Source of the DNA: Prevotella sp.
Lineage (GTDB): Bacteria; Bacteroidota; Bacteroidia; Bacteroidales; Bacteroidaceae
Reading direction: 5' to 3'
Length of the DNA stretch: 64,000 nucleotides
Assembly (NCBI GenBank): GCA_017417465.1
Contig: JAFPZD010000145.1
Location: 26,644-90,643 of the forward strand
Under the pieces are notes generated by a model. That model did not search any database, had not been told where the DNA came from, and saw only the letters and a program-made list of their open reading frames with translations. Position numbers and translations under genes: made by a program. This document shows, in pieces, positions 3,063 to 47,059 of the stretch (position 1 is the stretch's first letter; every line of letters begins with the position of its first letter).

Positions 3063-3065
3063 AAC

Positions 3066-29709: not shown

Positions 29710-31248
29710 TTAATACACTTTATTCAGATAGGCATGAACGCGAGCGGCAGCCTCAATGCCGCTCGCCAGGGCGCGCACCACTAAGCTGGCACCACTGGCA
29801 GCATCGCCACAGACGAACACATTGTCTGGATAGGCCGGATGCTGGGGTTTCAGGAATCCCATGGCAAGCAGAACCAGTTCGGCCTTGATGATGAAGGGCT
29901 CGGCCTTCTCCACCATCAGCAGCCGTCCGTCGTCGGGATTGGGTTTCCAGTCTATCTCCTGCACCTTGACACCAGTGAGGTGGCCGTCCTTGCCGAGGAA
30001 TTCGAGGGTATTGATGTTCCAGCGTCGGGTGCAGCCTTCTTCGTGGCTTGAGGTAGTCTTGAGCGTTCGAGGCCAGTTGGGCCAGGGGTTCTGCGGGTCG
30101 TCAGGCCCCTCGACAGGACGAGGCATAATCTCTATTTGGGTGACGCTTCGGCAGCCTTGGCGGTGAGCCGTGCCTATACAGTCACTGCCGGTGTCGCCGC
30201 CGCCGATGACGAGCACGTCCTTGCCACGGGCGGTAATGCGCTCTTCCTTGCTGAACTCGATTCCGGAGAGGACGCGGTTCTGCTGCGACAGCAGTTCGAG
30301 AGCGAAGTGGACGCCTTTCAGTTCGCGACCGGGGATGTTGAGGTCGCGGGCGGTAGGGGTGCCGGTGGCGAGAACTACGGCGGAGAAGGCCTCCCCAAGC
30401 CCCATTCCCGCTGACGCGCCTACCCGTAGCCTTTCCGAAGGAGGGGATGTTTGGTCACCAAGAGCCTTGTTGAATTCCTCGATAGAAAGGTAACCAAGCC
30501 CTCCCTCCTTCGGGGGGAGTTGGAGGGGGGTTCCGTATCGGAAGTCGATGCCTTCCTGCTCCATCAGCCTGATGCGACGGTCGATGATCGCTTTGTTGAG
30601 CTTGAAGTTCGGGATTCCATAACGTAGCAGACCACCGGCGGCCTCGTTCTTCTCGAACACGGTGACGGCGTAGCCCATCTGGTTGAGGGCGTTGGCAGCG
30701 GCGAGTCCGGCAGGACCGGCACCGATGACAGCCACGCTCATGCCGTTTCTGACAGGCACTCTCGGTTGGATATAGCCCTCACGGAAGGCACCCTCGATGA
30801 TGGCGCACTCGTTCTCGCGGTTGGTGGTCGGCTCGTGGTTAAAGCGGTTCAGCACGCAGGCCTTCTCGCAGAGTGCAGGACAGATGCGGCCAGTGAACTC
30901 TGGGAAGGGGTTGGTGCTCGACAGCAGACGAAAGGCCAGTTCCCAGTCGCCGCGATATAGCGCATCGTTCCATTCAGGTGCCTTGTTGCCTAACGGACAG
31001 GCCCAGTGGCAGAAGGGCACGCCGCAGTCCATGCAGCGCGAGGCCTGTTCACGACGCTGGTGTGTGTTGAGCGTCTGCTCCACCTCGCCAAAGTCATAGA
31101 TTCTATCGTGAATCGGACGATAGCCCGCCTCTTGACGGTGTATAGCGAGAAAAGGAGCCTCACCCCCAACCCCTCGCCGAGTAGAGAGGGGAGTAGTTAC
31201 CTGCAAGGCGAGATGGCTACTTTCATTTCTTCTTGTTATATCTTTCAT
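29710..31248 (-). CDS. gltD: Glutamate synthase small subunit, with two in-frame repeat inserts
   Basis: The 512-residue protein supplies NAD(P)H electrons to GltB. It has the cysteine-rich N-terminal domain (CMDCGVPFCHWACPLGN and CPALCEKACVLNRF), an FAD site (VIGAGPAGLAAANAL) and an NAD(P)H site (VIGGGDTGSDC). It is longer than usual because of two inserts. The first, at residues about 16-29 (TTPLSTRRGVGGEAP), lies before FLAIHRQEAGYRP. The second, at about 239-287, reads LPPKEGGLGYLSIEEF ... ERLRVGASAGMGLGEAF just before AVVLATGTPTARDL. Both derive from GC-rich palindromes and leave the conserved motifs intact, so the enzyme is probably functional. Confidence 0.94.
   Translation of the reverse strand: MKDITRRNESSHLALQVTTPLSTRRGVGGEAPFLAIHRQEAGYRPIHDRIYDFGEVEQTLNTHQRREQASRCMDCGVPFCHWACPLGNKAPEWNDALYRGDWELAFRLLSSTNPFPEFTGRICPALCEKACVLNRFNHEPTTNRENECAIIEGAFREGYIQPRVPVRNGMSVAVIGAGPAGLAAANALNQMGYAVTVFEKNEAAGGLLRYGIPNFKLNKAIIDRRIRLMEQEGIDFRYGTPLQLPPKEGGLGYLSIEEFNKALGDQTSPPSERLRVGASAGMGLGEAFSAVVLATGTPTARDLNIPGRELKGVHFALELLSQQNRVLSGIEFSKEERITARGKDVLVIGGGDTGSDCIGTAHRQGCRSVTQIEIMPRPVEGPDDPQNPWPNWPRTLKTTSSHEEGCTRRWNINTLEFLGKDGHLTGVKVQEIDWKPNPDDGRLLMVEKAEPFIIKAELVLLAMGFLKPQHPAYPDNVFVCGDAASGASLVVRALASGIEAAARVHAYLNKVY
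30387..30532. repeat. In-frame palindromic insert in gltD (family B)
   Basis: The arms CCTCCCCAAGCCCC ... GAAGGAGGGGATGTTTGGT and ACCAAGCCCTCCCTCCTTC ... GGAGGG face each other. The left arm is itself interrupted by a 33-bp block (30403-30435, beginning ATTCCCGCTGACGCGCCTAC) that recurs in pyrG and asnB. Confidence 0.85.
31160..31200. repeat. In-frame palindromic insert near the gltD start (family A)
   Basis: CCTCACCCCCAACCCCTCG ... GAGAGGGGAGTAG, related to the copy in carA at 42340-42468. It encodes TTPLSTRRGVGGEAP. Confidence 0.8.
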
Positions 31249-31288
31249 TGGTTTTATTGATTTGTTGTTCTGTTGGCAAGTCTATATA

Positions 31289-31360
31289 CTCCCCTCTCCC
31301 CTTGGAGAGGGGCTGGGGGTGAGGCTTCTTCAGCGGGAGAGGGGCTGGGGGTGAGGCTTC
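31289..31360. repeat. Family A palindrome in the gltB-gltD spacer
   Basis: CTCCCCTCTCCCCTTGGAGAGGGGCTGGGGGTGAGGCTTC, followed by a second GGGAGAGGGGCTGGGGGTG copy. The repeat ends one base before the gltB stop codon. Confidence 0.85.
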
Positions 31361-31361
31361 T

Positions 31362-34300
31362 TTAGTAGTCTCGCTGGATGTCAGCAATCTTCTCACGCAG
31401 TCGAGCCATCTTCTCCTCTTCGAGCACCCGTTTGTACTCGATGGGTACTACTTGGATGAAGTCTTCAATATAGTGTTGCCAGTCGTCAAGCATCCGTCCT
31501 GCCAATGCCGAGCCTGTATGCAGATAGTGCTGACGAACAAGTTCCAGGAGCTCTTTGCGCGAGACGCTGTCCTCGACGAGGTTGATTTCCACCATGTCCA
31601 TATTACAGAAGTAGTCGAACGTGTGCTTGGGGTCGTAGACGTAGGCCACACCGCCCGACATACCAGCCGCAAAGTTACGCCCCGTCTCGCCAAGCACCAC
31701 GACACGACCGCCGGTCATGTATTCGCAGCAGTGGTCGCCAGCACCCTCGATGACGGCGATGGCTCCCGAGTTGCGCACGCCGAAGCGCTCGCCCACCTTA
31801 CCGTTGATGTAGAGTTCGCCAGAGGTGGCGCCGTACAAGCCCGTGTTGCCGGCAATGATATTATCCTCAGCATGAAAATCCTCATTGCATCGGCTGGGAG
31901 GTAGGATGCTGATGCGCCCACCGCTTAGTCCCTTTCCAAAGTAGTCGTTACACTCGCCCTCGAGTCTGAGATTGAGTCCGCGAACGGCAAATGCTCCGAA
32001 CGACTGGCCTGCCGAACCCTTGAACTTGATGTTTATCGTACCATCGGGCAGTCCAGCCTCGCCATATTTCTTGGCGATAACGCCACTAAGCATTGTCGTG
32101 ACGGCACGATCGGTATTCTTGATGGCATAGTCGAGCGTCACTTCCTCCTGTTCGTCAATGGCCTTTTGAACAGCTTTGATGATTTCCTCGTCCTTCACGC
32201 CCGTCACCTTCGTGTAGGCACCACGATCCCAATAGAGTGGTTTCTCCGTCTCTGGCTTATGCAGCAGACGGTCGAAGTCGATGGTGCGCCATTTGGCCTC
32301 CCCAAGCCCCTCAAAAAGAGAGGATGTTTGGTTACCTGATGAGTTCGGAGTATCAGCGGAATCATCTATCTTGACATCCCCTCCTTTGGAGGGGCTTGGA
32401 GAGGCTTTCACCTCGATCAGTTCGGTATGGCCGATGATTTCCTTGAGACTGTGAACGCCAATCTCTGAAAGGTATTCGCGTACTTGCTGGGCAAGGAACG
32501 TGAAATAATTCACCACATACTCGGCACGACCTTCGAAGTGCTTACGCAACTCAGGGTTCTGCGTCGCCACACCCATCGGGCAGGTGTTGGTGTTGCATTT
32601 GCGCATCATCACGCAGCCCAGCACAATCAGTGGCAGCGTGCCAAACGAGAACTCGTCGGCACCCAGCATCGCCATGATGATGACGTCCTTGGCGGTCTTT
32701 AGCTGCCCGTCGGTCTGTAGGCGCACCTGATTGCGCAGACCATTCCTTACCAGTGTCTGTTGCGTCTCAGCGAGACCAATCTCTGGCGAAATGCCCGCAA
32801 AGCGCATACTGCTGGCAGGACTGGCTCCCGTACCACCTTCAGCACCGCTAATCACAATCAAATCTGCCTTGGCTTTGGCCACACCGGCAGCAATGGTGCC
32901 TACACCACTCTCGGCTACGAGTTTCACGCTGACGGCAGCCGTAGGGTTGATGTTCTTGAGGTCGAAGATGAGCTGTGCCAGATCCTCGATGGAGTAGATG
33001 TCGTGGTGGGGCGGCGGCGAGATGAGCGAGATGCCTGGGATGGCATTGCGCGTCTTGGCAATAATCTCGTTTACCTTGAAGCCGGGCAGCTGTCCGCCTT
33101 CGCCGGGCTTGGCTCCCTGCGCCACCTTGATTTGTAACTCCTCGGCATTCACCAGATACTCTGCTGTCACGCCGAAACGCCCGCTGGCAATCTGCTTGGT
33201 CTTGCTACTAAGACTAACGCCATCCACCTCCGTATGATAGCGGGCATTGTCCTCACCGCCCTCGCCCGTATTGCTACGAGTACCGAGTTTGTTCATCGCT
33301 AATGCCAGTGCTTCGTGAGCCTCGATGCTCAGTGCCCCGAAACTCATGGCTCCCGTTACGAAATGCTTCACAATAGACTCCACAGGCTCCACCTCATCAA
33401 TAGGCGTAGGCTTTTCCGCCTTCTTCCATCCGAAGAAGTCCCGGATAAAAATGGGAAAGTCTTTCTCATCGACTAACGATTCCCACGCTTTGAACTTCTC
33501 ATAGCTGCCCTGACGCGTGGCCAGTTGCAGCTTGGCGATGGTCTCTGGGTTCCAGGCGTGCTTGATGCCGTCCACGCGCCATGAGAACTGCCCCTGATTT
33601 GTCAAGTATGTCGCTGTATCACAGCGACCCGCCTTCTCCTGCCATCGTATCTGGTCCCTCGCAATATCCTTCAGCCCGATGCCACCGATGGTGCTCACCT
33701 CCGTGCCAAAATATCTGCGTAACAAGTCCTCGCTCAAACCGATGCTCTCGAAAATCTTCGCCCCTCGGTACGAGCGGATGGTCGAAATGCCCATCTTCGA
33801 CATCATCTTCTTCAGTCCCTTGTCTACGGCTTTGATATAGTTTTTCTCTGCCGTAGCGTATTCCTCCTGGATCTTCCCGCGCTTCACCAGGTCGTCGAGA
33901 ATGGCGAAGGTCATGTACGGGCACAGCGCACTGGCCCCATAGCCCAACAACAATGCGGCGTGCATCGTCTCACGAATCTCGCCACTCTCCACTATCAGCG
34001 CTGTCTGCACGCGCTTACCCACGGAAATCAGATAATGATGCACAGCGCTGACAGCTAACAACGAGGGGATTGCCACATGTTCCTTGTCAATATCGCGGTC
34101 TGTCAGGATGATATAATTTACACCCTCATCCACGCTAAGCTCTGCCTCATGACAGAGGTTGTCGAGCGCCACACGCAGCCGCTCACCCTCGTCTATCAGG
34201 CCTTTCTCGTAAGCTGCGACATCGTCGCAGCCCTCAAACGTCATCGCCAGCTTCTTTGTCCTGAATCCTTTATACCTTATATTACATAGTATATCGAGTT

Positions 34301-36107
34301 GTGTGTTGGTCAACACCGGCTGTGGCAGGCGCACCATCTTGCAGTTCGAGGCGTCGGGTGTCAGAATGTTGGTCCCCACTGCACCGATGTACTCTGTCAG
34401 CGACATCACCAGCTCCTCGCGGATAGGGTCGATAGCCGGATTTGTCACTTGTGCAAACTGCTGACGGAAGTAGTCGAACAGCACTTGCGGACGGTCGCTG
34501 AGGACGGCCAGCGGCGTGTCGTTGCCCATCGCTGCCACAGGCTCCTGTCCCGTCGTTGCCATCGGGATGATGGTACGTTCGATGTCCTCCTGCCCGTAGC
34601 CGAAAGCGATAAGCTTCCGCTCGAAATCGCTCACGGAGTTCTCCACCTTACGACCGCTCTTCAGCTTCTCCAGCTGAACGCGGTTCTCGATGAGCCATTC
34701 GCGGTAAGGATGCGCCTTGGCCAGCTGTTCCTTGATCTCGCCGTCGTAGTAGATCTTGCCCTCCTGCGTGTCGATGAGCAGAATCTTTCCTGGCTGCAGA
34801 CGCCCCTTGCTGACGACGTCGCCAGGCTCGAAGTCCATGACGCCCACCTCAGAGGCCACCACCATCAGGCCGTGCTTCGTTAACGTATACCGCGATGGGC
34901 GCAGGCCGTTGCGGTCGAGCATGCCACCTGCATAGCGCCCGTCAGAGAACAGCAGTGCCGCTGGGCCGTCCCACGGCTCCATTAGGATCGAGTGGTATTC
35001 GTAGAACGCTTTTAAGTCTTCCGATATCGGGTTCTTGTCGTTGAACGACTCCGGAACGAGGATGGCCATCGCCTGTGGCAGCGACATGCCGCTCATCATC
35101 AGGAACTCAAACACGTTGTCCAGGCTGGCGGAGTCACTCATGCCCTCCTGCACAATAGGAGCAATCTCCTTGATGTCGCCCAACGCTTTACTGCTGAGCA
35201 CACTCTCGCGTGCCTTCATCCATCCACGGTTACCGCGAATGGTGTTAATCTCGCCGTTATGGGCTAACAAGCGGAAGGGCTGGGCCAGCGACCACGTTGG
35301 GAATGTGTTTGTGCTAAAGCGTGAATGCACTAGCGCCAGTCCGCTTGTCAGGTAGGGACTCGACAAGTCCGGGAAATACCGACGCAGCTGACGGCTGGTC
35401 AGCATTCCCTTATATACAATGTTTGTGTTGGATAGCGAACAGATATAAAAAGCTGAAATGGTATCTACTCCCCTCTCCCCTCGGAGAGGGGTCGGGGGTG
35501 AGGCTTTTAAGGCTACCCTTTTCTCAATCCTTTTCCTTACAATATATAGCTTGCGATTAAATGCCGTTTCGTCATCTTGAGAGTAACTAAACTCCCCTCT
35601 CTTGGGGAGGGGTTGGGGGTGGGTCTGCTGGGTCACGAACACCTGCTTGATGTCAGGCTCCACTTCACGGGCAGCCTCACCCAGCACTTCCTGACAGGTA
35701 GGCACCGTGCGCAGGTGCATCAGCTGCAAGCCCTCGCGCTCTATCTCCTCAATCATTACTGACAGAATCTCCTGCTGCTGCTTTTCCGCTTTAGGGAGAA
35801 ACACCAACCCCGTGCCGTATTTCCCCTTTTCTGGTACTGGAATCCCCTGCAATAGAATGAACTCATGGGGTATCTGTAGCATGATACCTGCACCGTCGCC
35901 CGTCTTATCGCGCGTCTCGGCCCCTCGATGCTCCATGTTCTCCAGTACCTTTAGTGCATTGTCGATTAGTTCGTGGCTCTTGCTTCCGTGTATGTTAACC
36001 ACCATACCCACACCACACGCATCGTGCTCGTAACTCTCCTGATAGAGTCCTGACCTGGGATGGCAAGACTCGTCGGTCGCTCTTTTTACCTTTGTGTTAT
36101 TCACCAT
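31362..36107 (-). CDS. gltB: Glutamate synthase large subunit, with three in-frame repeat inserts
   Basis: The 1581-residue enzyme transfers the glutamine amide to 2-oxoglutarate. It has the N-terminal amidotransferase domain with nucleophile Cys31 in YEHDACGVGMV (preceded by a propeptide), the synthase domain (GSFGALSIEAHEALA, GAEGGTGASP), the 3Fe-4S cysteines (CVMMRKCNTNTCPMG) and the C-terminal beta-helix (GNTGLYGATSGELYINGKVGERF). It is longer than the usual ~1500 residues owing to inserts at about 160-172 (KASPPTPLRGERG region), 200-213 (THPQPLPKRGEF region; numbering approximate) and 1232-1271 (KASPSPSKGGDVK ... NQTSSLFEGLGEA). All three are encoded by GC-rich palindromes. It starts a gltB-gltD-glnN operon from the promoter at 36170-36177. 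Confidence 0.95.
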   Translation of the reverse strand: MVNNTKVKRATDESCHPRSGLYQESYEHDACGVGMVVNIHGSKSHELIDNALKVLENMEHRGAETRDKTGDGAGIMLQIPHEFILLQGIPVPEKGKYGTGLVFLPKAEKQQQEILSVMIEEIEREGLQLMHLRTVPTCQEVLGEAAREVEPDIKQVFVTQQTHPQPLPKRGEFSYSQDDETAFNRKLYIVRKRIEKRVALKASPPTPLRGERGVDTISAFYICSLSNTNIVYKGMLTSRQLRRYFPDLSSPYLTSGLALVHSRFSTNTFPTWSLAQPFRLLAHNGEINTIRGNRGWMKARESVLSSKALGDIKEIAPIVQEGMSDSASLDNVFEFLMMSGMSLPQAMAILVPESFNDKNPISEDLKAFYEYHSILMEPWDGPAALLFSDGRYAGGMLDRNGLRPSRYTLTKHGLMVVASEVGVMDFEPGDVVSKGRLQPGKILLIDTQEGKIYYDGEIKEQLAKAHPYREWLIENRVQLEKLKSGRKVENSVSDFERKLIAFGYGQEDIERTIIPMATTGQEPVAAMGNDTPLAVLSDRPQVLFDYFRQQFAQVTNPAIDPIREELVMSLTEYIGAVGTNILTPDASNCKMVRLPQPVLTNTQLDILCNIRYKGFRTKKLAMTFEGCDDVAAYEKGLIDEGERLRVALDNLCHEAELSVDEGVNYIILTDRDIDKEHVAIPSLLAVSAVHHYLISVGKRVQTALIVESGEIRETMHAALLLGYGASALCPYMTFAILDDLVKRGKIQEEYATAEKNYIKAVDKGLKKMMSKMGISTIRSYRGAKIFESIGLSEDLLRRYFGTEVSTIGGIGLKDIARDQIRWQEKAGRCDTATYLTNQGQFSWRVDGIKHAWNPETIAKLQLATRQGSYEKFKAWESLVDEKDFPIFIRDFFGWKKAEKPTPIDEVEPVESIVKHFVTGAMSFGALSIEAHEALALAMNKLGTRSNTGEGGEDNARYHTEVDGVSLSSKTKQIASGRFGVTAEYLVNAEELQIKVAQGAKPGEGGQLPGFKVNEIIAKTRNAIPGISLISPPPHHDIYSIEDLAQLIFDLKNINPTAAVSVKLVAESGVGTIAAGVAKAKADLIVISGAEGGTGASPASSMRFAGISPEIGLAETQQTLVRNGLRNQVRLQTDGQLKTAKDVIIMAMLGADEFSFGTLPLIVLGCVMMRKCNTNTCPMGVATQNPELRKHFEGRAEYVVNYFTFLAQQVREYLSEIGVHSLKEIIGHTELIEVKASPSPSKGGDVKIDDSADTPNSSGNQTSSLFEGLGEAKWRTIDFDRLLHKPETEKPLYWDRGAYTKVTGVKDEEIIKAVQKAIDEQEEVTLDYAIKNTDRAVTTMLSGVIAKKYGEAGLPDGTINIKFKGSAGQSFGAFAVRGLNLRLEGECNDYFGKGLSGGRISILPPSRCNEDFHAEDNIIAGNTGLYGATSGELYINGKVGERFGVRNSGAIAVIEGAGDHCCEYMTGGRVVVLGETGRNFAAGMSGGVAYVYDPKHTFDYFCNMDMVEINLVEDSVSRKELLELVRQHYLHTGSALAGRMLDDWQHYIEDFIQVVPIEYKRVLEEEKMARLREKIADIQRDY
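32295..32409. repeat. In-frame palindromic insert in gltB (family B)
   Basis: Left arm GCCTCCCCAAGCCCCTC ... AGGATGTTTGG, right arm GACATCCCCTCCTTTGGAGG ... GGAGAGGCTTTC. It matches the pyrG insert at 39339-39490 over arms and interior, and both are read in a frame giving ASPSPSKGGDVK. Confidence 0.9.
35467..35506. repeat. In-frame family A palindrome in the gltB N-terminal region (first)
   Basis: ACTCCCCTCTCCCCTCGGAG followed by AGGGGTCGGGGGTGAGGCTT. On the coding strand it encodes KASPPTPLRGERG. Confidence 0.85.
35590..35626. repeat. In-frame family A palindrome in the gltB N-terminal region (second)
   Basis: AACTCCCCTCTCTTGGGGAG followed by GGGTTGGGGGTGGGTCTG. On the coding strand it encodes THPQPLPKRGEF. 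Confidence 0.85.
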
Positions 36108-36169
36108 ACGTCTTTACTATTTACATTTATTCCTGAACAACCCCTAACTCGTATTATCCTTTTCGGATG

Positions 36170-36177
36170 CAAAGTTA
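36170..36177 (-). promoter_or_regulatory. -7 promoter box for gltB
   Basis: TAACTTTG followed by CATCC on the minus strand, 62 bp before the ATG at 36107. Confidence 0.65.
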
Positions 36178-36377
36178 GTGCATTTTTTCGTTCCACGACT
36201 CAGACAGTGATTGATTTTAATGAGGAATACGCCAAATACTTTTAATCTAAAAAGATTCTTGGCTGTGCCTCTTACAAATCACAACAAAACAACACTAAAA
36301 TATTCCGATTCGTTATCCCAATTCCTTTCACAAGATTTAAAACCCAACAACGAACCGCCTATTCCGACGAATTGTCG

Positions 36378-36385
36378 TAACTTTG
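36378..36385 (+). promoter_or_regulatory. -7 promoter box for amt
   Basis: TAACTTTG followed by CAGCC, 67 bp before the ATG at 36453. Confidence 0.65.
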
Positions 36386-36452
36386 CAGCCGAATTCTTAC
36401 AAGGATGACACAAGTAATTATTATAATTAATAAGGTAAAAAGACAGAACAAG

Positions 36453-37835
36453 ATGAAGATCAAGAAGCGTTGGATAATTCTGATGACGGCAATGACGTTG
36501 ATAGCCGTCGCTGGCGTGTTCGTAGGCGAGCCTACGTTCGAATGTGACTGGTCGGTGGTTTCGGCTGCTGACGTGGCGTGGCTGATTACGGCCACGATTT
36601 TTGTATTGATGATGACACCAGGGCTGTCGTTTTTCTATGGCGGCATGGTGGGGGCGAAGAATGTGATTTCCACCATGCTCCAGTCGTTCATTGCCATGGG
36701 CCTGATTTCGGTGCTATGGGTGGCGGTGGGCTTCTCGCTGTGCTTTGGCGACGACATTGGTGGCGTGATAGGGAATCCGTTGACGTTCCTCATGTTCCAA
36801 AACGTTGGTGCTGAAGTGTACACGACGCCTGCGGGCAACGTGCTGGGTGGCGCCACCATTCCGCTGGCCCTGTTTGCCCTGTTCCAGATGAAGTTCGCCA
36901 TCATCACGCCGTCGCTCATCACAGGGTCGTTTGCCGAGCGCGTGCGTTTCTCGGCTTACCTGTTTTTCATGATGTTCTTCTTTTTCGCCATCTACTGTCC
37001 ACTGGCACACATGACATGGCATCCCGAAGGACTGTTTATGAAGTGGGGCGTCGTCGACTTTGCCGGTGGCATCGTCGTACACGCCTCTTCGGGCATAGCC
37101 GCCCTCGCAGGCGCCATCTATCTGGGCCGCCGGAACACGGAGAAGAGCGAGCCCGCCAACATTCCATTTGTGTTGTTGGGTGCTGCCCTCCTTTGGCTAG
37201 GCTGGTTTGGCTTCAACGCTGGTTCGTCGCTGCACGCCGACGGTCAGGCCGTCAAGGCATTCCTCAACACGAATACAGCTTCGGCCACTGCCATGATGAC
37301 ATGGATAATCTTCGACTGTCTGCGCGGCCGAAAGCCGTCGGCCATGGGTGCCGCCGTGGGCTGCGTAGTAGGTCTGGTAGCCATCACACCATCAGCTGGC
37401 TATGTCACCGTCGGCCAAAGCATCTTTATCGCCTTCGTCATCACGCTCATCTGCAACGTGGCCGTCTATTGGCGCTCACACTCCCAGATTGACGATGCCC
37501 TCGACGTGTTTCCCACCCACGGCACGGGCGGCATCTTCGGCACCGTGCTGACCGGCATCTTCATCCAGGAGGGCCTCATCGCAGGAACATGGGAGGGCTT
37601 CGTCATATTTCTCTACCATCTGCTGGCCATCGTCATTGTCTTTGTCTATACTTTCGCCATGAGTTGGCTGGGCTACAAACTCATCGACAGTCTCATACCC
37701 ATGCGCGTCTCAACCTACAGCGAGAAGGTGGGGCTCGACTTCTCGCAGCACGATGAGCACTACGGGCTGGCCCATATCGGCGAGCGCGAGCTGGCTGAGT
37801 ACGAGGAGCACATCAGGGAAAAAGAAAACAAATAG
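36453..37835 (+). CDS. amt: Ammonium transporter
   Basis: The 460-residue Amt/MEP/Rh channel has about eleven hydrophobic helices, with the signature MMTPGLSFFYGGMVGAKN near the N-terminus, FAGGIVVHASSGIAALAGA (the D/H pore region) and LNTNTASATAMMTW. The start at 36453 (MKIKKRWIILMT) gives a short charged lead before the first helix; a longer frame begins at 36405. No PII (glnK) gene follows, unlike the usual amt-glnK pairing. A small outer-membrane protein gene comes 2 bp later instead. The location opposite gltBD-glnN points to nitrogen-limitation control. Confidence 0.95.
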   Translation: MKIKKRWIILMTAMTLIAVAGVFVGEPTFECDWSVVSAADVAWLITATIFVLMMTPGLSFFYGGMVGAKNVISTMLQSFIAMGLISVLWVAVGFSLCFGDDIGGVIGNPLTFLMFQNVGAEVYTTPAGNVLGGATIPLALFALFQMKFAIITPSLITGSFAERVRFSAYLFFMMFFFFAIYCPLAHMTWHPEGLFMKWGVVDFAGGIVVHASSGIAALAGAIYLGRRNTEKSEPANIPFVLLGAALLWLGWFGFNAGSSLHADGQAVKAFLNTNTASATAMMTWIIFDCLRGRKPSAMGAAVGCVVGLVAITPSAGYVTVGQSIFIAFVITLICNVAVYWRSHSQIDDALDVFPTHGTGGIFGTVLTGIFIQEGLIAGTWEGFVIFLYHLLAIVIVFVYTFAMSWLGYKLIDSLIPMRVSTYSEKVGLDFSQHDEHYGLAHIGERELAEYEEHIREKENK

Positions 37836-37837
37836 AT

Positions 37838-38542: not shown

Positions 38543-38543
38543 T

Positions 38544-40292
38544 ATGAAAACGAAATACATCTTTGTCACGGGCGGCGTCGTTTCCTCGTTGGGCAAGGGC
38601 ATCATTGCAGCCAGTATCGGCAAGATGTTGCAGACGCGCGGCTTCAAGATTACCATCCAGAAGTTCGACCCCTACATCAATATCGATCCTGGAACGCTTA
38701 ACCCCTACGAGCACGGTGAGTGCTATGTGACGGAGGACGGCTTCGAAACCGACCTCGACCTAGGACACTACGAGCGATTTACGGGCATTCGCACCACACG
38801 TAACAACAGCATCACCACGGGCCGCATCTACAAAACGGTGATTGACCGCGAACGTCACGGCGATTATCTGGGTAAAACTATCCAGGTGGTGCCGCATATC
38901 ACAGACGAGATAAAGAGGCGGATGCTACGTGAGGAGCTTGGGGAGGCCTTCGATTTCGTCATTACCGAGGTTGGCGGTACCATCGGTGACATTGAGAGTG
39001 CACCGTTTATGGAGGCCATCCGGCAGCTGCGCTGGGAGTTGGGACGCGATGCGGTGTGTGTCCACCTAACCTACGTACCCTATCTGAAAGCCGCCGACGA
39101 GTTGAAGACGAAGCCTACGCAACACTCAGTGAAGGAGCTGCAGAGCATGGGTATTCAGCCGGACATTCTTGTCCTTCGTACCGAACGCCACCTTGATGAC
39201 GCGATGCGCATGAAGGTGGCATCGTTCTGTAATGTCGACTTGAAGTGTGTAGTACAGAGCGAGGACATGCCCAGCATCTATGAAGTGCCGGTAAATATGC
39301 AGCAACAAGGACTCGATGCCGCCATATTAAGAAAGGTCCAAGCCTCCCCAAGCCCCTCCAAAGGAGGGGATGTTAAGATACCTAATTCCGCGGTCATTCC
39401 TGCTGCTTCAAGTAATCAAACATCCCCTCCTTTGGAAAGGCTACGGGTAGGCGCGTTAGCGGGAATGGGGCTTGGGGAGGCTTTTGGGGAGGCCTGGACT
39501 GCCTGGCTCTCTTTCCTCGACAAGCAGCGCAAGGCTACACACGAGGTACACATAGGAATAGTAGGTAAGTATGATCTACAAGATGCCTATAAGAGCATTC
39601 GCGAGAGCCTGAATCTGGCTGGTGTCTACAATGACGTGAAGGCGAAGATTCATTTCGTGAACAGCGAGGAGGTGACGAGGGAGAACGTCGCCGATAAGCT
39701 CGGTGTTATGGCAGGCATCATCATCTGTCCCGGTTTCGGCCAACGTGGCATCGAAGGAAAAATCATTGCCGCCGAATACGGGCGTACATACAACATTCCT
39801 ACTTTCGGCATCTGTCTCGGTATGCAGATGATGGTCATCGAATTTGCACGGAATGTGCTGGGGTATAAGGATGCGATAAGTAGTGAAATGAAAGCCTCCC
39901 CCCATTGCGTCATCGACCTGATGGAGGAGCAGAAAACCGTGACGAATCTTGGTGGCACAATGCGGCTGGGGGCCTACGATTGTGAACTGGTGAAAGGCAG
40001 TCATGTCTTTGAAGCTTACGGTGAAGTGAGTCTCATTCGTGAGCGTCACCGCCACCGCTACGAGTTCAACAATAAATATAAGGAGGAATACGAGCAAGCA
40101 GGCATGAAATGCGTCGGCATCAACCCTGCCGCTAACCTTGTGGAAATTGTCGAGATACCCGACAAGCAATGGTATATCGGCACGCAATTCCATCCTGAGT
40201 ACAGTTCTACGGTGTTGCACCCGCATCCGCTGTTTATGAGCTTTATGAAGGCTTGCATAAATTGTCAAATTGCACAATCGACAAATAAATAG
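38544..40292 (+). CDS. pyrG: CTP synthase with in-frame repeat insert in the interdomain linker
   Basis: The 582-residue enzyme makes CTP from UTP with glutamine as ammonia donor. The N-terminal amidoligase domain opens MKTKYIFVTGGVVSSLGKGI and the C-terminal amidotransferase domain has the nucleophile Cys424 in FGICLGMQMM and HPEYSS. The family norm is about 535-545 residues. The extra length is an insert at residues about 265-315 (ASPSPSKGGDVK ... NQTSPPLERLRVGALAGMGLGEAF). It falls exactly between the two domains, before HIGIVGKYDLQDAYKS. The C-terminal tail QIAQSTNK is coded by AATTGTC-type repeat DNA. The start ATG lies 1 bp after the upstream stop. Confidence 0.95.
   Translation: MKTKYIFVTGGVVSSLGKGIIAASIGKMLQTRGFKITIQKFDPYINIDPGTLNPYEHGECYVTEDGFETDLDLGHYERFTGIRTTRNNSITTGRIYKTVIDRERHGDYLGKTIQVVPHITDEIKRRMLREELGEAFDFVITEVGGTIGDIESAPFMEAIRQLRWELGRDAVCVHLTYVPYLKAADELKTKPTQHSVKELQSMGIQPDILVLRTERHLDDAMRMKVASFCNVDLKCVVQSEDMPSIYEVPVNMQQQGLDAAILRKVQASPSPSKGGDVKIPNSAVIPAASSNQTSPPLERLRVGALAGMGLGEAFGEAWTAWLSFLDKQRKATHEVHIGIVGKYDLQDAYKSIRESLNLAGVYNDVKAKIHFVNSEEVTRENVADKLGVMAGIIICPGFGQRGIEGKIIAAEYGRTYNIPTFGICLGMQMMVIEFARNVLGYKDAISSEMKASPHCVIDLMEEQKTVTNLGGTMRLGAYDCELVKGSHVFEAYGEVSLIRERHRHRYEFNNKYKEEYEQAGMKCVGINPAANLVEIVEIPDKQWYIGTQFHPEYSSTVLHPHPLFMSFMKACINCQIAQSTNK
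39339..39490. repeat. In-frame palindromic insert in pyrG (family B)
   Basis: Left arm CAAGCCTCCCCAAGCCCCTC ... AGGGGATGTT; right arm AACATCCCCTCCTTTGGA ... GGGGCTTGGGGAGGCTT. The right arm carries the 33-bp block AAGGCTACGGGTAGGCGCG ... GCGGGAAT in reverse relative to gltD and asnB. It is open in the pyrG frame. Confidence 0.92.
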
Positions 40293-40323
40293 TAAATCGT
40301 AAATTGTCAAATTGTAAATAAAA

Positions 40324-42138
40324 ATGGTGGAGCAACTAAAGCATGAGTGTGGCGTGGCGATGATTCGCCTGCTGAAGCCACTGGACTACTACGCCCAGAA
40401 GTATGGCACGTGGGCATACGGCTTCAACAAGCTCTACTTGATGATGGAGAAGCAGCACAACCGTGGTCAGGAGGGGGCCGGTTTCGCCTCAGTGAGTCTG
40501 AACCGTGAGCTAGGCACGGAATATATGTTCCGAGAGAAGGCCGAAGGAAAGGATGCCATCACCGAAATCTTTAGTCGTGTGAAAGAAAAGATGGCAGGCG
40601 AACTCTATATGGGTCATCTGCGCTACTCGACGACGGGAAAGAGCGGGTTGCAGTATGTCCATCCCTTCTTGCGTCGGAACAACTGGCGAGCCAAGAACCT
40701 CTGCTTGTGTGGCAACTTCAACATGACCAACATCGACGAGGTATTCCGTTTCCTGACATCGCTGGGACAGTCGCCACGTTTTTATGGCGACTCGTACATC
40801 ACCCTCGAACTGATGGGTCACCGGCTCGACCGAGAGGTGGAGCGGCTTTATGCCATTGCCAAGAATCAGGGCTTGCAAGGCACGGCCATCACAGGCTATA
40901 TTGACGACCACGTTGATGTGGCCAACGTGCTGCGAACGACAATGGAGCACTACGACGGCGGCTACGTGATGTGCGGCCTTACGGGCAGCGGTGAGATGTT
41001 CGTCGTACGCGACCCCTGGGGCATCCGCTCCGCCTTCTACTACTGTGACAACGAGATTGCAGCCGTTGCCAGTGAGCGCCCAGTATTGCAGACAACCTTT
41101 GACCTGCAGGCTGAGGACATCTGTGAGCTACAGCCCGGCGAGTCGCTCATCGTCCGCCGTAGCGGCGAGAGTCATCTGGAGCAGATTATGCCTGCCAAGA
41201 AACTGAGCGCCTGCTCGTTCGAGCGCATCTACTTTAGCCGGGGCTCCGACCGTGACATCTATCAGGAACGCAAACGCCTGGGCGAACAGCTGACGCCCGC
41301 CATCCTGAAAGCCATTAACAATGATGTAACCAATACAGTCTTTTCATATATCCCCAACACTGCCGAGGTGGCCTTCTATGGCATGACCGACGGCTTCCGT
41401 AAGGCTGCGATTAAGCGAGAGGAATCAGAGCTTGCTCAGATTCCAGAGCGTGAGCAGGTTCGAACGAAGTTCAAACTTCACGGAGAAGTGCGCACGGAAA
41501 AGGTGGTGTGGAAGGACATCAAACTGCGCACTTTTATTGCCGACAACAGCGAGCGCAACGACCTGGCCGCTCACGTCTATGACATCAGCTACGGCTCGCT
41601 GCGTCCACATGAGGACAACCTTGTCATCATCGACGACTCAATAGTGCGTGGCACAACCCTGAAGGAGAGCATCTTCAAGATGCTCGACCGTCTGCACCCC
41701 AAGAAGATTGTGATGGTGAGCAGTTCGCCACAAATTCGCTATCCCGACTATTATGGCATCGACATGGCACGACTAGAAGAGTTTTGCGCTTTTCGAGCCA
41801 CGATGGATCTTATTGAAGAACGTGGTCTGTGGCAACTGGTTAACGACACCTATCTGGCCTGCAAACACGACCCGCAAACAGAAAATCATGTCCGGGCGCT
41901 CTACGAGCCGTTCACCATCGACGAAATCAACCAGAAGATCGTGGAGATGTTGCGTCCGAAGGGCATGCAAACACCCGTCGAACTGGTGTTCCAGAGCATA
42001 GAGGGCCTTCACAAGGCTTGCCCCAACCACCCAGGCGACTGGTATTTCACCGGCCATTACCCTACCCCTGGCGGTACACGTCTCTGCAACGCTGCCTTTG
42101 TAAACTATATCGACACCAAACAAAAGAAGCAACAATAA
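40324..42138 (+). CDS. purF: Amidophosphoribosyltransferase (PurF-type)
   Basis: The 604-residue protein has an N-terminal class II amidotransferase domain (HECGVAMI with probable nucleophile Cys9, HLRYSTTG, CLCGNFNMTN) and a C-terminal phosphoribosyltransferase domain with the PRPP loop VIIDDSIVRGTTLK. It catalyses the first step of purine synthesis from PRPP and glutamine. It is longer than E. coli PurF (about 505), and the N-terminus is extended before the Cys, so the Cys would have to be exposed by processing. No palindromic insert is seen. It lies between pyrG and carAB in the glutamine-amide operon. Confidence 0.9.
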   Translation: MVEQLKHECGVAMIRLLKPLDYYAQKYGTWAYGFNKLYLMMEKQHNRGQEGAGFASVSLNRELGTEYMFREKAEGKDAITEIFSRVKEKMAGELYMGHLRYSTTGKSGLQYVHPFLRRNNWRAKNLCLCGNFNMTNIDEVFRFLTSLGQSPRFYGDSYITLELMGHRLDREVERLYAIAKNQGLQGTAITGYIDDHVDVANVLRTTMEHYDGGYVMCGLTGSGEMFVVRDPWGIRSAFYYCDNEIAAVASERPVLQTTFDLQAEDICELQPGESLIVRRSGESHLEQIMPAKKLSACSFERIYFSRGSDRDIYQERKRLGEQLTPAILKAINNDVTNTVFSYIPNTAEVAFYGMTDGFRKAAIKREESELAQIPEREQVRTKFKLHGEVRTEKVVWKDIKLRTFIADNSERNDLAAHVYDISYGSLRPHEDNLVIIDDSIVRGTTLKESIFKMLDRLHPKKIVMVSSSPQIRYPDYYGIDMARLEEFCAFRATMDLIEERGLWQLVNDTYLACKHDPQTENHVRALYEPFTIDEINQKIVEMLRPKGMQTPVELVFQSIEGLHKACPNHPGDWYFTGHYPTPGGTRLCNAAFVNYIDTKQKKQQ

Positions 42139-42141
42139 CAG

Positions 42142-45100
42142 ATGATGAGAGAAGCAAAACTAATACTCGAAGATGGCACAGCGTTCTGCGGCTGGTCGTT
42201 TGGCTATCATCTGGGAGCGGTTGGCGAGGTGGTCTTCAACACAGCCATGACCGGCTATCCTGAGTGTCTGACAGATCCCAGCTATGCAGGACAGATACTC
42301 GTGATGACGTTCCCGCTGATTGGCAATTATGGTGTGCCCAGCCTCACCCCCGACCCCTCTCCAAAGGGAATGGGGAGTATATACCTTCAAGGGCAGAAAG
42401 CAACTGATGGACAAGCGCATGAACTAACCACTCCCCTCTCCCTTTGGAGAGGGGCTGGGGGAGAGGCCCTCCCTGTTCTGGAAAGCGACCATATTCATCC
42501 CAAGGCACTGGTTGTAGCAGACTATAGTGAGGCATATTCACACTGGAATGCGAAGGAGTCGTTGGCAGCCTGGCTCAAGCGTGAGAAGATTCCTGCCATT
42601 ACAGGCGTCGACACGCGAAGACTCACGAAAGTGCTACGCGAGCATGGTGTGATGATGGGGAGGATTGTAATACATGAAGAATCAAGAATTAAGAATGAAG
42701 CGCTCGAGCTCTGCTCGCTTGCTACCGAAGGGACGCAAGAATTTTCTACCGCACAGATTCCTTTTGATAGCTACGAAGCCGTGAACTGGGTGGAAAAGGT
42801 GAGCTGCAATGATATAATCATCTATTCAAGTTCGCAAGTTCTGCACAGCCGATGCCGTAGGCATCAGACAGTGGTAGCCAGCCATGAAATGGCTGGTAAC
42901 AGGGGGTTGCGTAACGAGCGTGCCGTAGGTACGCGACAAGGGTCGGATGCTGTCGCGTACCTACGGCACACGCTTCATTCTTCACTTCCTCGTGTGGTAC
43001 TTGTGGACTGTGGTGTGAAGACCAATATCATCCGTTGCCTGATACGGCGTGGCCTTGAGGTGGTTCGGGTGCCTTGGGACTACGACTTCAACCAGTTGGA
43101 GTTCGACGGCTTGTTTCTGGCTAATGGCCCTGGTGACCCTGAGCAATGCAGCAAGACGGTGGAGCATATCCGCGCGTTCTTGGAAGGCAAGACAGTTCGC
43201 CCTTGCATGGGCATCTGCCTTGGCAATCAGCTGTTGGCCCGTGCGGCTGGGGCTAAGACCTACAAACTGAAATACGGCCATCGCTCGCACAACCAGCCTG
43301 TGCAGCGGGTGGGCACGACACAGTGCTTCATCACTTCACAAAATCATGGGTATGCTGTGGACAATAAAACATTGCCTGCTGACTGGGAACCGCTCTTCGT
43401 GAACATGAACGACGGCTCAAACGAAGGCATACGCCATAAGACGCGCCCTTGGTTCTCGGCTCAGTTCCATCCAGAAGCATGCTCAGGCCCAACGGATACC
43501 GAATGGTTGTTTGACGAATTCGCTAATAGTTTAAAATGCAAAGTTGAGAGTGTAGAGTTTGCTACCGCCACCGATGGAAACACAAGCTCTACAGCGGTAG
43601 CAAACTCTACACTCTACACTCTCAACTCTACACTAAGAAAAGTTCTCATCCTTGGCAGCGGTGCCCTGAAAATCGGCCAGGCCGGCGAGTTCGACTACAG
43701 TGGCGCACAGGCCCTGAAGGCATTGAAGGAGGAGTGCATCCACTCCGTGCTCATCAATCCAAACATCGCCACGGTGCAAACGAGCAAAGGCATTGCCGAC
43801 ACGGTCTATTTCCAGCCCGTGACGCCAGAGTTTGTGGAGCGCGTTATAGAGAAGGAACGCCCCGACGGCATCCTGCTCTCGTTCGGAGGACAGACGGCCT
43901 TGAACTGTGGTGTGGAGCTATATCAGAAAGGTGTGCTGGAGAAATATGGAGTCCGCGTGCTGGGCACGCCCGTTCAGGCCATCATCGACACGGAAGACCG
44001 CGACCTCTTTGTCAAGCGCCTCGACGAGATTGGCGTGAAAACCATCAAGAGTCATGCCTGCAAAAGCATCGAGGAGGTGCAGCGGGCAGCCCACGAACTG
44101 GGATTCCCCGTCATTCTGCGGGCCGCATACGCCCTTGGCGGTCTGGGCAGCGGCTTCTGCGACAACAACGACGAACTGCTCGCACAAGCCGAGGAGGCTT
44201 TCTCATTCTCGCCCCAGGTGTTGGTGGAAAAGTCTCTGAAAGGTTGGAAAGAGATAGAGTACGAAGTGGTGCGCGACCGCTACGACAACTGCATCACCGT
44301 CTGTAACATGGAGAACTTCGATCCGCTGGGTATACACACCGGCGAGTCCATTGTTGTGGCGCCATCACAGACGCTCAGCAATAGCGAGTACCATAAGCTT
44401 CGTACGCTGGCCATCAAGATTATCCGCCATATCGGCATTGTCGGCGAATGTAACGTGCAGTACGCCCTTGACCCTAACAGCGAGGACTACCGCGTCATCG
44501 AGGTCAATGCCCGACTGAGCCGCTCGTCAGCTCTGGCCTCGAAGGCCACGGGCTATCCCCTTGCCTTTGTCGCTGCCAAGCTGGGCTTAGGCTATGGGCT
44601 CTTCCAGCTGAAGAACTCAGTCACCAAGACCACCTCGGCCTTTTTCGAGCCTGCCCTCGACTACGTGGTAGTCAAAATTCCACGCTGGGACTTGACGAAG
44701 TTCCACGGCGTCAAACGTGAGCTCGGCTCGTCGATGAAGAGCGTAGGCGAGGTGATGGCCATAGGCCGCACGTTTGAGGAAGCTCTGCAAAAGGGCCTGC
44801 GAATGATTGGGCAGGGCATGCATGGTTTCGTTGAGAACCACGAAATCAAGATCAAGGATATAGCTAAGTCGCTACACGAGCCTACGGATATGCGCATTTT
44901 TGTCGTGTCGAAAGCATTGAAGATTGGCTACAGCGTCGAGCAGATTCACCAACTGACAAAGATTGACCGCTGGTTCCTGCAGAAGCTGAAGCACATCGTC
45001 GGCATCGACCTGCAGCTGAAAGAGCAGACTATCCTTGCTGAGGTCTCGGAGTTCATGGAGCCAAGCGAATTCTTAGAATATTTGAGGTCGCCAGAGATCT

Positions 45101-45315
45101 ATAAGCTCTTACATGCCGCCAAGGTTTACGGTTTCTCAGACTTTCAGATTGCACGTGCCATCGGCTTGGAACAGCGGATGAAGCCTGAACAGGCTGGACT
45201 TACCGTCCGCTCGTGGCGCAAACAGCTGGGCCTCGTGCCTACCGTCAACCAGATTGACACCCTCGCAGCCGAGTATCCTGCCCAAACCAATTATCTGTAT
45301 TTGTCGTACCTATAA
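42142..45315 (+). CDS. carAB: Fused carbamoyl-phosphate synthase: CarA joined to the N-terminal half of CarB
   Basis: This 1057-residue chain starts with CarA (about 1-460; amidotransferase Cys359 in CMGICLGNQLL) and continues, through a repeat-coded linker (about 464-498), into CarB (KVLILGSGALKIGQAGEFDY). The CarB part contains the first ATP-grasp unit (RAAYALGGLGSGFCDN, ENFDPLGIHTGES, EVNARLSRSSALASKATGYP) and the oligomerisation domain. It stops at TNYLYLSYL, exactly where the second ATP-grasp half should begin, 16 bp before asnB. Full CarB is about 1070 residues, so roughly half is missing. CarA has two more repeat inserts (about 66-109 and 231-281). The frame is intact from 42142 to the stop, so decay is not obvious, but activity is uncertain. 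Confidence 0.88.
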   Translation: MMREAKLILEDGTAFCGWSFGYHLGAVGEVVFNTAMTGYPECLTDPSYAGQILVMTFPLIGNYGVPSLTPDPSPKGMGSIYLQGQKATDGQAHELTTPLSLWRGAGGEALPVLESDHIHPKALVVADYSEAYSHWNAKESLAAWLKREKIPAITGVDTRRLTKVLREHGVMMGRIVIHEESRIKNEALELCSLATEGTQEFSTAQIPFDSYEAVNWVEKVSCNDIIIYSSSQVLHSRCRRHQTVVASHEMAGNRGLRNERAVGTRQGSDAVAYLRHTLHSSLPRVVLVDCGVKTNIIRCLIRRGLEVVRVPWDYDFNQLEFDGLFLANGPGDPEQCSKTVEHIRAFLEGKTVRPCMGICLGNQLLARAAGAKTYKLKYGHRSHNQPVQRVGTTQCFITSQNHGYAVDNKTLPADWEPLFVNMNDGSNEGIRHKTRPWFSAQFHPEACSGPTDTEWLFDEFANSLKCKVESVEFATATDGNTSSTAVANSTLYTLNSTLRKVLILGSGALKIGQAGEFDYSGAQALKALKEECIHSVLINPNIATVQTSKGIADTVYFQPVTPEFVERVIEKERPDGILLSFGGQTALNCGVELYQKGVLEKYGVRVLGTPVQAIIDTEDRDLFVKRLDEIGVKTIKSHACKSIEEVQRAAHELGFPVILRAAYALGGLGSGFCDNNDELLAQAEEAFSFSPQVLVEKSLKGWKEIEYEVVRDRYDNCITVCNMENFDPLGIHTGESIVVAPSQTLSNSEYHKLRTLAIKIIRHIGIVGECNVQYALDPNSEDYRVIEVNARLSRSSALASKATGYPLAFVAAKLGLGYGLFQLKNSVTKTTSAFFEPALDYVVVKIPRWDLTKFHGVKRELGSSMKSVGEVMAIGRTFEEALQKGLRMIGQGMHGFVENHEIKIKDIAKSLHEPTDMRIFVVSKALKIGYSVEQIHQLTKIDRWFLQKLKHIVGIDLQLKEQTILAEVSEFMEPSEFLEYLRSPEIYKLLHAAKVYGFSDFQIARAIGLEQRMKPEQAGLTVRSWRKQLGLVPTVNQIDTLAAEYPAQTNYLYLSYL
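42340..42468. repeat. In-frame palindromic insert in carA (family A)
   Basis: Left arm GCCTCACCCCCGACCCCTCT ... GGGGAGTATAT; right arm ACTCCCCTCTCCCTTTGGAG ... GGGGGAGAGGC. It encodes LTPDPSPKGMGS ... TTPLSLWRGAGGEA. The last peptide parallels TTPLSTRRGVGGEA in GltD. Confidence 0.9.
42835..42973. repeat. In-frame palindromic element, copy 2, inside carA
   Basis: It repeats the intergenic element at 3250-3385 almost base for base (CAAGTTCTGCACAGCCGATG, CCAGCCATGAAATGGCTGG, then the stem 42919-42938 with 42951-42972, which has two extra bases in the right arm). It encodes VLHSRCRRHQTVVASHEMAG and the following residues. Confidence 0.93.
43540..43632. repeat. Inverted repeat forming the CarA-CarB linker
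   Basis: AGAGTGTAGAGTTTGCTACC at 43548-43567 faces GGTAGCAAACTCTACACTCT at 43596-43615, followed by extra ACTCTACACT units. It encodes VESVEFATATDGNTSSTAVA and the following residues between the two enzyme parts. Confidence 0.85.
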
Positions 45316-45331
45316 AAAAATAAAGAAGATT

Positions 45332-47059
45332 ATGTGTGGAATAGTAGCAATACTGAACGTTCAGAAGCAGACTTCCGAACTGAGACAAAAGGCATTGAAA
45401 ATGAGTCAGAAAATCCGTCATCGCGGGCCTGACTGGAGTGGTATATATTGTGGTGGCACGGCCATCCTTGCTCACGAGCGACTGAGCATTGTCGACCCTG
45501 AAAGCGGAGGACAGCCCCTTTACAGCTCTGGCCACAAGCAGGCGCTGGCCGTGAATGGCGAGATATACAACCATCAGGAGATTCGTCGCCGCTACGTCGG
45601 GCAATACGAGTTCCAGACAGGCAGCGACTGCGAGGTCATCCTCGCTCTCTACCGTGAAAAAGGCATCAACTTCCTCGAAGACCTCAACGGCATATTTGCC
45701 TTTGCTCTCTACGACGAGGAGCGCGATGAGTTTCTGATAGCCCGCGACCCTATTGGTGTCATACCTCTTTATATAGGTTATGACAGCGACGGCACCGTCT
45801 ATGTGGCCTCCGAGCTGAAGGCCCTCGAAGGCCAGTGCGAGCGCTATGAGCCATTCCTGCCCGGCCACTACTATTGGAGTGTAGACCCAGGCCAGAAGTG
45901 GTACTATCGCCGCGACTGGATGCAGTATGACGCCGTGAAGGGCAATCCCGCCTCAGTCGAGGCTATCCGCGACGGTCTCACCGCAGCTGTTAAGCGTCAG
46001 TTGATGTCCGACGTGCCTTACGGCGTGCTCCTCTCCGGCGGTCTCGATAGTAGCGTTATCTCTGCTCTCGCCGAGAAGTTCTCAGAGCACCGCATCGAAG
46101 ACGATTCAAGGACTAAAGCCTACTGGCCACGCCTGCACTCTTTTGCCGTCGGACTGAAGGGAGCCCCCGATCTGGCAAAGGCCCGCCTTGTTGCCGACCA
46201 TATCGGCACCGTCCACCACGAAATCAACTACACCATCCAGGAGGGACTCGATGCCATCCGCGATGTCATCTACTTCATTGAGACCTACGATGTCACCACC
46301 GTCCGCGCCTCCACGCCAATGTACCTGCTGGCTCGCGTCATCAAGTCAATGGGCATCAAGATGGTACTCTCAGGTGAGGGCGCCGACGAAATTTTTGGTG
46401 GCTACCTCTACTTCCACAAGGCTCCATCGGCTCGTGACTTCCATGAGGAAACGGTGCGCAAGTTAGGCAAGCTCCATCTCTACGACTGTCTACGCGCCAA
46501 CAAGAGTCTGTCGGCCTGGGGTGTCGAGGGCCGTGTGCCTTTCCTCGACAAAGAATTCCTCGATATTGCCATGCGTACTAACCCAGAGGCCAAGATGTGC
46601 GGCCTCACCACCGACCCTATTCCCGCTGAAGCGCCTACCCGTAGTCTTTCTCCAAAGGGCGAAGGGAGATTTACCATCGAAAAGAAGATTGTGCGCGAAG
46701 CCTTTGCCGACTTACTACCCGAGGCAGTGGTCTGGCGACAAAAGGAACAGTTTTCCGACGGCGTCGGCTACTCTTGGATCGACACCCTCAAAGACATCAC
46801 TTCCAAAGCCGTGTCAGACGAGCAGATGGCCCACGCCGCCGAGTGTTTCCCCATCAACCCGCCAAAGAACAAGGAGGAGTATTACTATCGCAGCATCTTC
46901 GCTGAACATTTCCCTTCCGACTCTGCCGCCCGCAGCGTACCCTCGGAGGCCAGCGTTGCCTGCTCAACAGCTATCGCCCTCGAGTGGGATGCCACCTTCC
47001 GCAACATGAACGACCCCAGTGGCCGCGCCGTCAGGGGCGTTCACGAACAAGCGTACTGA
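45332..47059 (+). CDS. asnB: Asparagine synthetase B (glutamine-hydrolysing), with short repeat insert
   Basis: The 575-residue enzyme starts MCGIVAIL, giving nucleophile Cys2 after Met removal, followed by RHRGPDWSG and the synthetase domain with the pyrophosphate loop LLSGGLDSSVI and LSGEGADEIFGGYLYF. It makes asparagine from aspartate with glutamine. At residues about 424-446 the usual short MCGN-type loop before the KKIVREAF helix is replaced by LTTDPIPAEAPTRSLSPKGEG, coded by a repeat block shared with gltD and pyrG. It is the last gene of the amt-pyrG-purF-carAB-asnB operon and begins 16 bp after the carAB stop. Confidence 0.96.
   Translation: MCGIVAILNVQKQTSELRQKALKMSQKIRHRGPDWSGIYCGGTAILAHERLSIVDPESGGQPLYSSGHKQALAVNGEIYNHQEIRRRYVGQYEFQTGSDCEVILALYREKGINFLEDLNGIFAFALYDEERDEFLIARDPIGVIPLYIGYDSDGTVYVASELKALEGQCERYEPFLPGHYYWSVDPGQKWYYRRDWMQYDAVKGNPASVEAIRDGLTAAVKRQLMSDVPYGVLLSGGLDSSVISALAEKFSEHRIEDDSRTKAYWPRLHSFAVGLKGAPDLAKARLVADHIGTVHHEINYTIQEGLDAIRDVIYFIETYDVTTVRASTPMYLLARVIKSMGIKMVLSGEGADEIFGGYLYFHKAPSARDFHEETVRKLGKLHLYDCLRANKSLSAWGVEGRVPFLDKEFLDIAMRTNPEAKMCGLTTDPIPAEAPTRSLSPKGEGRFTIEKKIVREAFADLLPEAVVWRQKEQFSDGVGYSWIDTLKDITSKAVSDEQMAHAAECFPINPPKNKEEYYYRSIFAEHFPSDSAARSVPSEASVACSTAIALEWDATFRNMNDPSGRAVRGVHEQAY
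46605..46670. repeat. In-frame repeat block in asnB
   Basis: It contains ATTCCCGCTGAAGCGCCTAC and CCGTAGTCTTTC, a slightly diverged copy of the 33-bp block at 30403-30435, plus the half palindrome CTCCAAAGGGCGAAGGGAG. Confidence 0.8.

Follow-up and report, generated by a model that had tools for sequence, protein, structure and literature searches.

The window examined here, a 64,000-nucleotide stretch of Prevotella sp. DNA, contains short GC-rich palindromes that form extra in-frame segments in several conserved metabolic genes. These segments are probably copies of a non-autonomous mobile palindrome family similar to REPINs (hairpin-forming doublets of repetitive extragenic palindromes, REPs), with selection having filtered the copies that lie inside genes. 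The initial annotation had placed such palindromes in gltB, gltD, pyrG, carA, asnB and a blaR1-like gene, and repeats were located in all six. The window lies on contig C10 of its source genome (G000), a 4.42 Mb bin in 278 contigs with a completeness of 90.8% and a contamination of 5.53%.

The unit is a GC-rich, REP-like palindrome of ~40-46 bp, present as a short imperfect palindrome in many copies and frequently paired as inverted doublets. Its parts are a CCYCACCCCC tail, a CCCCTCYCC/GGRGAGGGG hairpin and a second, short tail at the 3′ end, and it reads about AARCCYCACCCCC-RR-CCCCTCYCC-loop-GGRGAGGGG plus a tail frequently ending in TA or TAG. It looks like a REP/REPIN-type element.

Insertions in the window enzymes

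The features, with positions in the window, are as follows (ORF, open reading frame).

29710..31248, - strand: gltD host ORF
30386..30530, - strand: gltD in-frame doublet, with a nested 32-bp element in the second arm
31155..31199, + strand: N-terminal REP unit of gltD, oriented antisense to the gene
31283..31359, - strand: two intergenic REP units between gltB and gltD
31362..36107, - strand: gltB host ORF
32296..32413, - strand: gltB site 3, in-frame inverted doublet
35462..35506, - strand: gltB site 2, REP unit
35584..35626, - strand: gltB site 1, REP unit
38544..40292, + strand: pyrG host ORF
39339..39492, + strand: PyrG inter-domain linker, in-frame doublet containing a nested element
42142..45315, + strand: fused carA-carB host ORF
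42340..42468, + strand: carA in-frame doublet
43527..43635, no strand assigned: carA-carB linker, AT-rich inverted repeat from another family
45332..47059, + strand: asnB host ORF
46610..46672, + strand: asnB in-frame unit with nested 32-bp element
4345..4472, no strand assigned: REP-like units located within the blaR1-like ORF (4153-6150, + strand)

Window genes were aligned with those of 8 relatives for gltB, gltD and carAB, 27 for pyrG and 10 for asnB, giving, with the window included, 9 rows each for gltD, gltB and carAB, 28 for pyrG, 13 for purF and 11 for asnB. The reading frame is shifted in three carAB rows, and a single stop interrupts one row in each of the pyrG, purF and asnB alignments. 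The closest named relatives, among the best 80 of more candidates, are uncultured Prevotellaceae headed by L036 (89% PyrG identity), whose gltD row is partial. The gene order gltD-gltB-pyrG-purF-carAB-asnB is conserved across several of them.

The alignments identified extra in-frame segments at three sites in GltB (one of them a doublet), in GltD (the internal doublet and the N-terminal unit), and in PyrG, CarA and AsnB. Most relatives do not have these segments, in agreement with the earlier proposal that they are additions. At the codon level, L036 is empty at four of these places, namely site 3 of gltB, the internal doublet of gltD and the insertions in carA and asnB, and carries repeats at the other two gltB sites (1 and 2) and in pyrG; repeats at these last three places are therefore not confined to the window. 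The first arm of the pyrG doublet is one and the same insertion in the two genomes; the second arm of the window copy contains an extra nested piece. The segment scan also flagged window stretches that are not this repeat (gltB 626-637, carAB 185-201 and 232-275, purF 360-383). The carA-carB linker had been assigned to the GC-rich family as well; a repeat is present there, but it is the AT-rich one of a different family.

Since the frames remain open in conserved, constrained genes, we infer that the inserts are translated. The N-terminal gltD unit, which together with the intergenic units at 31283-31359 flanks the gltD start codon, is itself probably translated, as no ATG, GTG or TTG occurs in frame between it and the conserved part. 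The recurrence of the same peptides in unrelated proteins, noticed at the outset, was confirmed in the translations; these peptides are rich in proline and glycine. Judged by the ratio of nonsynonymous to synonymous change (dN/dS, window versus L036), the host cores are still constrained, with values of 0.066 for pyrG, 0.091 for gltB, 0.163 for gltD and 0.054 for asnB. The inserts fall in linkers, loops or termini; the initial annotation had described domain borders or loops. In an AlphaFold model of PyrG (38 sequences; mean predicted local distance difference test score, pLDDT, 81.6), insert residues 268-311 have pLDDT below 50 and lie between two confident domains, the sole other such stretch being residues 48-58.

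Several relatives (L042, L045, L046 and L047) carry in-frame inserts of their own, at pyrG residue 133, at purF residue 89, in asnB and in carA. Some derive from other repeat families, encoding NSQFSI-, PLTS- or LTPNPSPVGEG-like peptides, and several occupy the identical site in different species. When 26 loci were searched, 14 of 23 other-family inserts had another match at E < 0.05, so their status as repeats is confirmed in part. The carB part of the window's fused ORF stops after ~560 residues; E. coli CarB is longer.

Distribution, hosts and reading frame of the family

A pattern scan of the source genome found 115 places (57 + 58) versus 4 (2 + 2) with the reversed pattern. An iterated profile built from the window copies retrieved 213 non-overlapping copies at E < 0.01 and 2 in reversed sequence, from regions picked around pattern matches and not sampled at random. 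Among 83 pairs of neighbouring units less than 300 bp apart, 52 were convergent (+-), 15 were ++, 16 were -- and none were divergent (-+); inverted doublets around a short spacer are thus the predominant pair, and many single units occur too. Allowing one mismatch, a match was present in 27 of 121 genomes of the bacterial family, with a patchy spread, and in 3 of 7 genomes of the genus, the source genome included. Two near-closed congeners of two contigs each, G056 and G092, also carry the family. Strand counts are balanced in most copy-rich genomes; in G078 they are uneven (19 forward, 4 reverse, mainly a one-mismatch variant).

Coding assignments were made with our own flank codon scores, computed for each genome. 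By this measure, 43 of 127 copies in the source genome are internal to coding frames, as are 10 of 31 in G010 and 12 of 38 in G110, compared with 3 of 52 in G092, 5 of 45 in G056, 1 of 21 in G100 and 0 of 17 in G115 (for G100 and G115, 15 short loci each were looked at, from totals of 75 and 55 exact places). When points were drawn at random from these stretches, 58-78% were internal, which indicates depletion inside genes in all seven genomes, far milder in the source genome, G010 and G110, which represent two genera. When terminal copies are included, 82/127, 24/31 and 22/38 copies in these three genomes lie in coding frames. The family is therefore predominantly extragenic, as expected of REPs, in G092, G056, G100 and G115 but not in the other three.

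Internal copies favour one codon register: 44 of 60 scorable copies used it, versus 24.4 expected if open registers were equal, and the preference holds in both orientations (65 internal copies in G000, G010 and G110, those without a recognisable anchor being excluded). Of 41 ORFs carrying internal copies, 20 were run against Pfam to identify the hosts; seven of these 20 and three window enzymes were run against NCBIfam. In the source genome, the LigA adenylation domain and DNAG_N of DnaG are each matched as two stretches around the insert, and in FtsY the insert lies between its two domains. Other hosts in this genome include RecG, Mfd (with copies at two sites), a protein of UvrA type that scores under the curated cut-off, an EtfB-like protein that is also under cut-off, a hybrid two-component system, glycoside hydrolases and an outer-membrane efflux protein. 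In G110 and G010, Pfam domains make the hosts resemble Era, AsnB, RibD and PrmC.

Copies near one another tend to be alike. The nested 32-bp element occurs, with at most 3 mismatches, at three places in 4.4 Mb, and these lie in gltD, pyrG and asnB within 16.2 kb. For clusters of the commonest type, similarity was 0.904 on the same contig versus 0.868 (0 of 3000 permutations), and a same-contig signal was obtained across all cluster types (22 of 5000); the test took in 118 of the 127 copies. In the relative L046, the carA and asnB inserts are 95.6% alike over 45 nt.

Origin of the insertions

Work from 2013 reported that both REPs and REP dimers lie in frame within genes of several bacteria, repair genes among them; REPs tagged with GTAG or CGTC were reported inside genes of Opitutus terrae, Rickettsia conorii, Xanthomonas and other bacteria, and CGTC repeats are listed for Bacteroidetes (PMC3733652). 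The present family shares with these REPs the short palindromes, the predominance of head-to-head dimers, the in-frame copies in known proteins and the recurrent replication and repair hosts, including uvrA and DNA ligase. It differs in its recurrent signal-peptide copies, in the absence of divergent pairs and in its lack of the tetranucleotide tag that marks one end of the stem in those REPs, since a search within 10 nt of 331 copies gave no enrichment of either tag (GTAG 62 versus 58 expected, CGTC 13 versus 87, from mononucleotide shuffles). The initial annotation had likened the behaviour to that of the Rickettsia palindromic elements, and this holds for in-frame insertion into unrelated conserved genes (PMC10969869, PMC2229807). 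The unit itself looks REP/REPIN-like. The Rickettsia units measure ~105-150 bp, versus 40-46 bp here and ~120 bp for doublets, a comparison made by description and not by sequence. Pseudomonas REPINs likewise consist of two REPs inverted around a spacer in many copies per genome, but are extragenic and near RAYTs (REP-associated tyrosine transposases, of the IS200/IS605 kind; PMC3116915), whereas here three of the seven genomes examined have many of their copies inside genes and no RAYT association was seen. Enterobacterial RU-1 and RU-2 also fuse in frame, as single cases in the available text (PMC2759123), in contrast to the recurrent, mainly same-frame use in ~21 genes of one genome described below.

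Neither in-frame REPs in Prevotellaceae nor REP-bounded or SusD signal-peptide modules were recognised in searches of an open-access library, outside which most subscription papers lie, and neither is described in the available text of the five works above (PMC3733652, PMC10969869, PMC2229807, PMC2759123, PMC3116915) or of PMC12306157. The in-frame habit is known from a few other bacteria and is apparently undescribed for the Prevotella-type group; the earlier statement that no equivalent was known there stands in this narrower form, the kind itself being wider.

If these are REPIN-like copies, in-gene copies would persist only where the frame is kept and the target is a disordered linker, loop, terminus or signal peptide. 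The outcome would be a selfish element of nearly neutral effect whose copies purifying selection has sifted. The similarity of nearby copies suggests that copies in a region seed adjacent genes, probably via recombination or templated copying, and some copies have turned into parts of lipoprotein leader and signal-peptide modules. The mover would not need to be a RAYT. Classic REPINs moved by a RAYT in each host would agree with the published architecture of unit and doublet (PMC3116915), and the source genome has two matches to Y1_Tnp, the RAYT domain. We nevertheless regard this explanation as unlikely, as Y1_Tnp was found in 6 of 15 genomes with at least 4 copies versus 38 of 106 others (121 genomes), G056 and G092 contain copies without a Y1_Tnp match at E 0.001, and the two Y1_Tnp loci of the source genome (3.3 and 3.2 kb) contain none of these palindrome units by pattern. 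A RAYT gene flanked by the same REP was thus not found at those two loci. Other repeats, not of this family (GCCGCCCCTTCAGGG; VGAGLVPAR-like peptides), lie near the two loci (L034 and L035).

Selection of the inserts for modifying host proteins, such as glutamine amidotransferases or repair enzymes, also appears improbable. Replication and repair hosts (RecG, LigA, Mfd, DnaG, UvrA-type) do recur, as in other bacteria (PMC3733652), and in pyrG the proportion of synonymous differences from L036 (pS) is 0.06 in 21 shared insert codons versus 0.53 in the core. However, low pS is neither general nor specific to repeats: it is 0.64 in aligned gltB insert codons versus 0.53, and 0.00 in a 24-codon non-repeat stretch of purF, so nothing firm follows from the pyrG value. 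Moreover, hosts are many and unrelated, those of the window neighbour each other, the single modelled insert (PyrG) is disordered, and in relatives other repeat families occupy some of the same sites. Fragmentation and contamination of the metagenome bin might suggest an assembly or binning artefact; since the pyrG insert recurs in the independent assembly L036 and the family is present in two-contig genomes of the genus, we give this next to no weight. Splicing out or bypass of the inserts, leaving normal proteins, is very improbable: the frames run open through the inserts, and no support was found for it, though no search aimed at splicing or bypass was made.

Several observations count against the REPIN-like interpretation or qualify it. 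The repeats of L036 at gltB sites 1 and 2 could be old shared insertions, and the doublet at gltB site 3 seems to replace about nine host residues. By eye, no obvious target-site duplication of the kind that marks MITEs (miniature inverted-repeat transposable elements) is present at empty sites, the ends are fuzzy and no excision product was shown. Clusters of type A gave no local-similarity signal (939 of 3000 permutations), duplicated regions could account in part for same-contig similarity, and coding assignments depend on our own codon score. In the source genome, the two arms of a doublet resemble each other slightly more than they resemble arms from other doublets (131 of 5000 permutations); G092 and G056 gave 1368 and 2218 of 5000. 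Formation of doublet arms by copying one another is thus weakly supported by the source genome and unsupported by G092 and G056. We abandoned the view that host sequence is bracketed by every doublet, as many spacers resemble the element's own sequence by eye; an exception is gltB sites 1-2 in L036, which bracket ~27 conserved codons.

An in-gene palindrome lifestyle is seen here within one bacterial family alongside related genomes whose copies are mostly extragenic, and because these keep the same element the transition is open to comparative study. It extends the tolerant hosts to replication, repair and protein-export genes, and accounts, for annotation and structure prediction, for unusual stretches rich in proline and glycine in the proteins of such bacteria.

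Copies in lipoprotein signal peptides

Many N-terminal copies lie directly before the apparent lipobox of a lipoprotein signal peptide, in antisense orientation and mostly in one frame, yielding LAPLTWGGVGGGLLTSC-like signal-peptide ends. In the source genome, copies supply the end of the hydrophobic stretch in ~21 such signal peptides, a set defined by our own pattern and not by a predictor (23 rows minus one spurious and one duplicate, leaving 21 genes). They were seen at L150:650-950 and 2820-3120, at L158:4147-14983, and in L136, L134 and L132, and contig C162 has an additional near-copy of this type. By position matching, 12 of 32 SusD-like_3 places in this genome have a repeat-containing signal peptide. 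Copies inside apparent signal peptides are present too in G021 (L230) and G115 (L227), which belong to other genera. This suggests that selfish hairpins can turn into recurring parts of SusD-like lipoprotein export signals.

Sequence comparison supports copying of leader and signal peptide as a module in some operons. On C163, two adjacent genes are 83% identical over 142 bp of leader and signal peptide up to the cysteine codon, and their mature parts have no BLASTP match, the second gene being compared over 51 residues only. On C232, leaders and signal peptides of four genes are up to 84% identical over 184 bp, with mature parts lacking a mutual match at 1e-5. For several other gene pairs, related mature proteins make common descent a sufficient account. 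With repeats left out, leaders were alike above the 99.9% shuffle level in 21 of 210 pairs of repeat-bearing genes versus 4 of 91 pairs drawn from SusD-like genes that lack the repeat, a modest difference, some control rows having doubtful lipoboxes (that of L212 is surely wrong). The 21 pairs are concentrated in few operons, leader similarity not being general, and the repeat-free pair L197/L211 is strongly alike in its leader too.

A tentative possibility, which we consider rather less probable than not, is that palindrome pairs delimit portable modules of leader, start codon and signal peptide that are copied between genes. Module copying would then parallel exon shuffling in bacteria: a selfish hairpin would provide the terminal portion of the hydrophobic stretch of the export signal, and its inverted partner would mark the upstream boundary, close to the stop codon of the gene before. 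On C67, a paralogue encodes a mature protein nearly the same as those on C162 and C163 (200 residues compared) and is without both units, and the difference spans the interval between the stop codon upstream and the lipobox. These closely similar SusD genes lie on short contigs (L219/L314 on C67, L313 on C162, L150 on C163) and could be true paralogues or strain variants within the bin.

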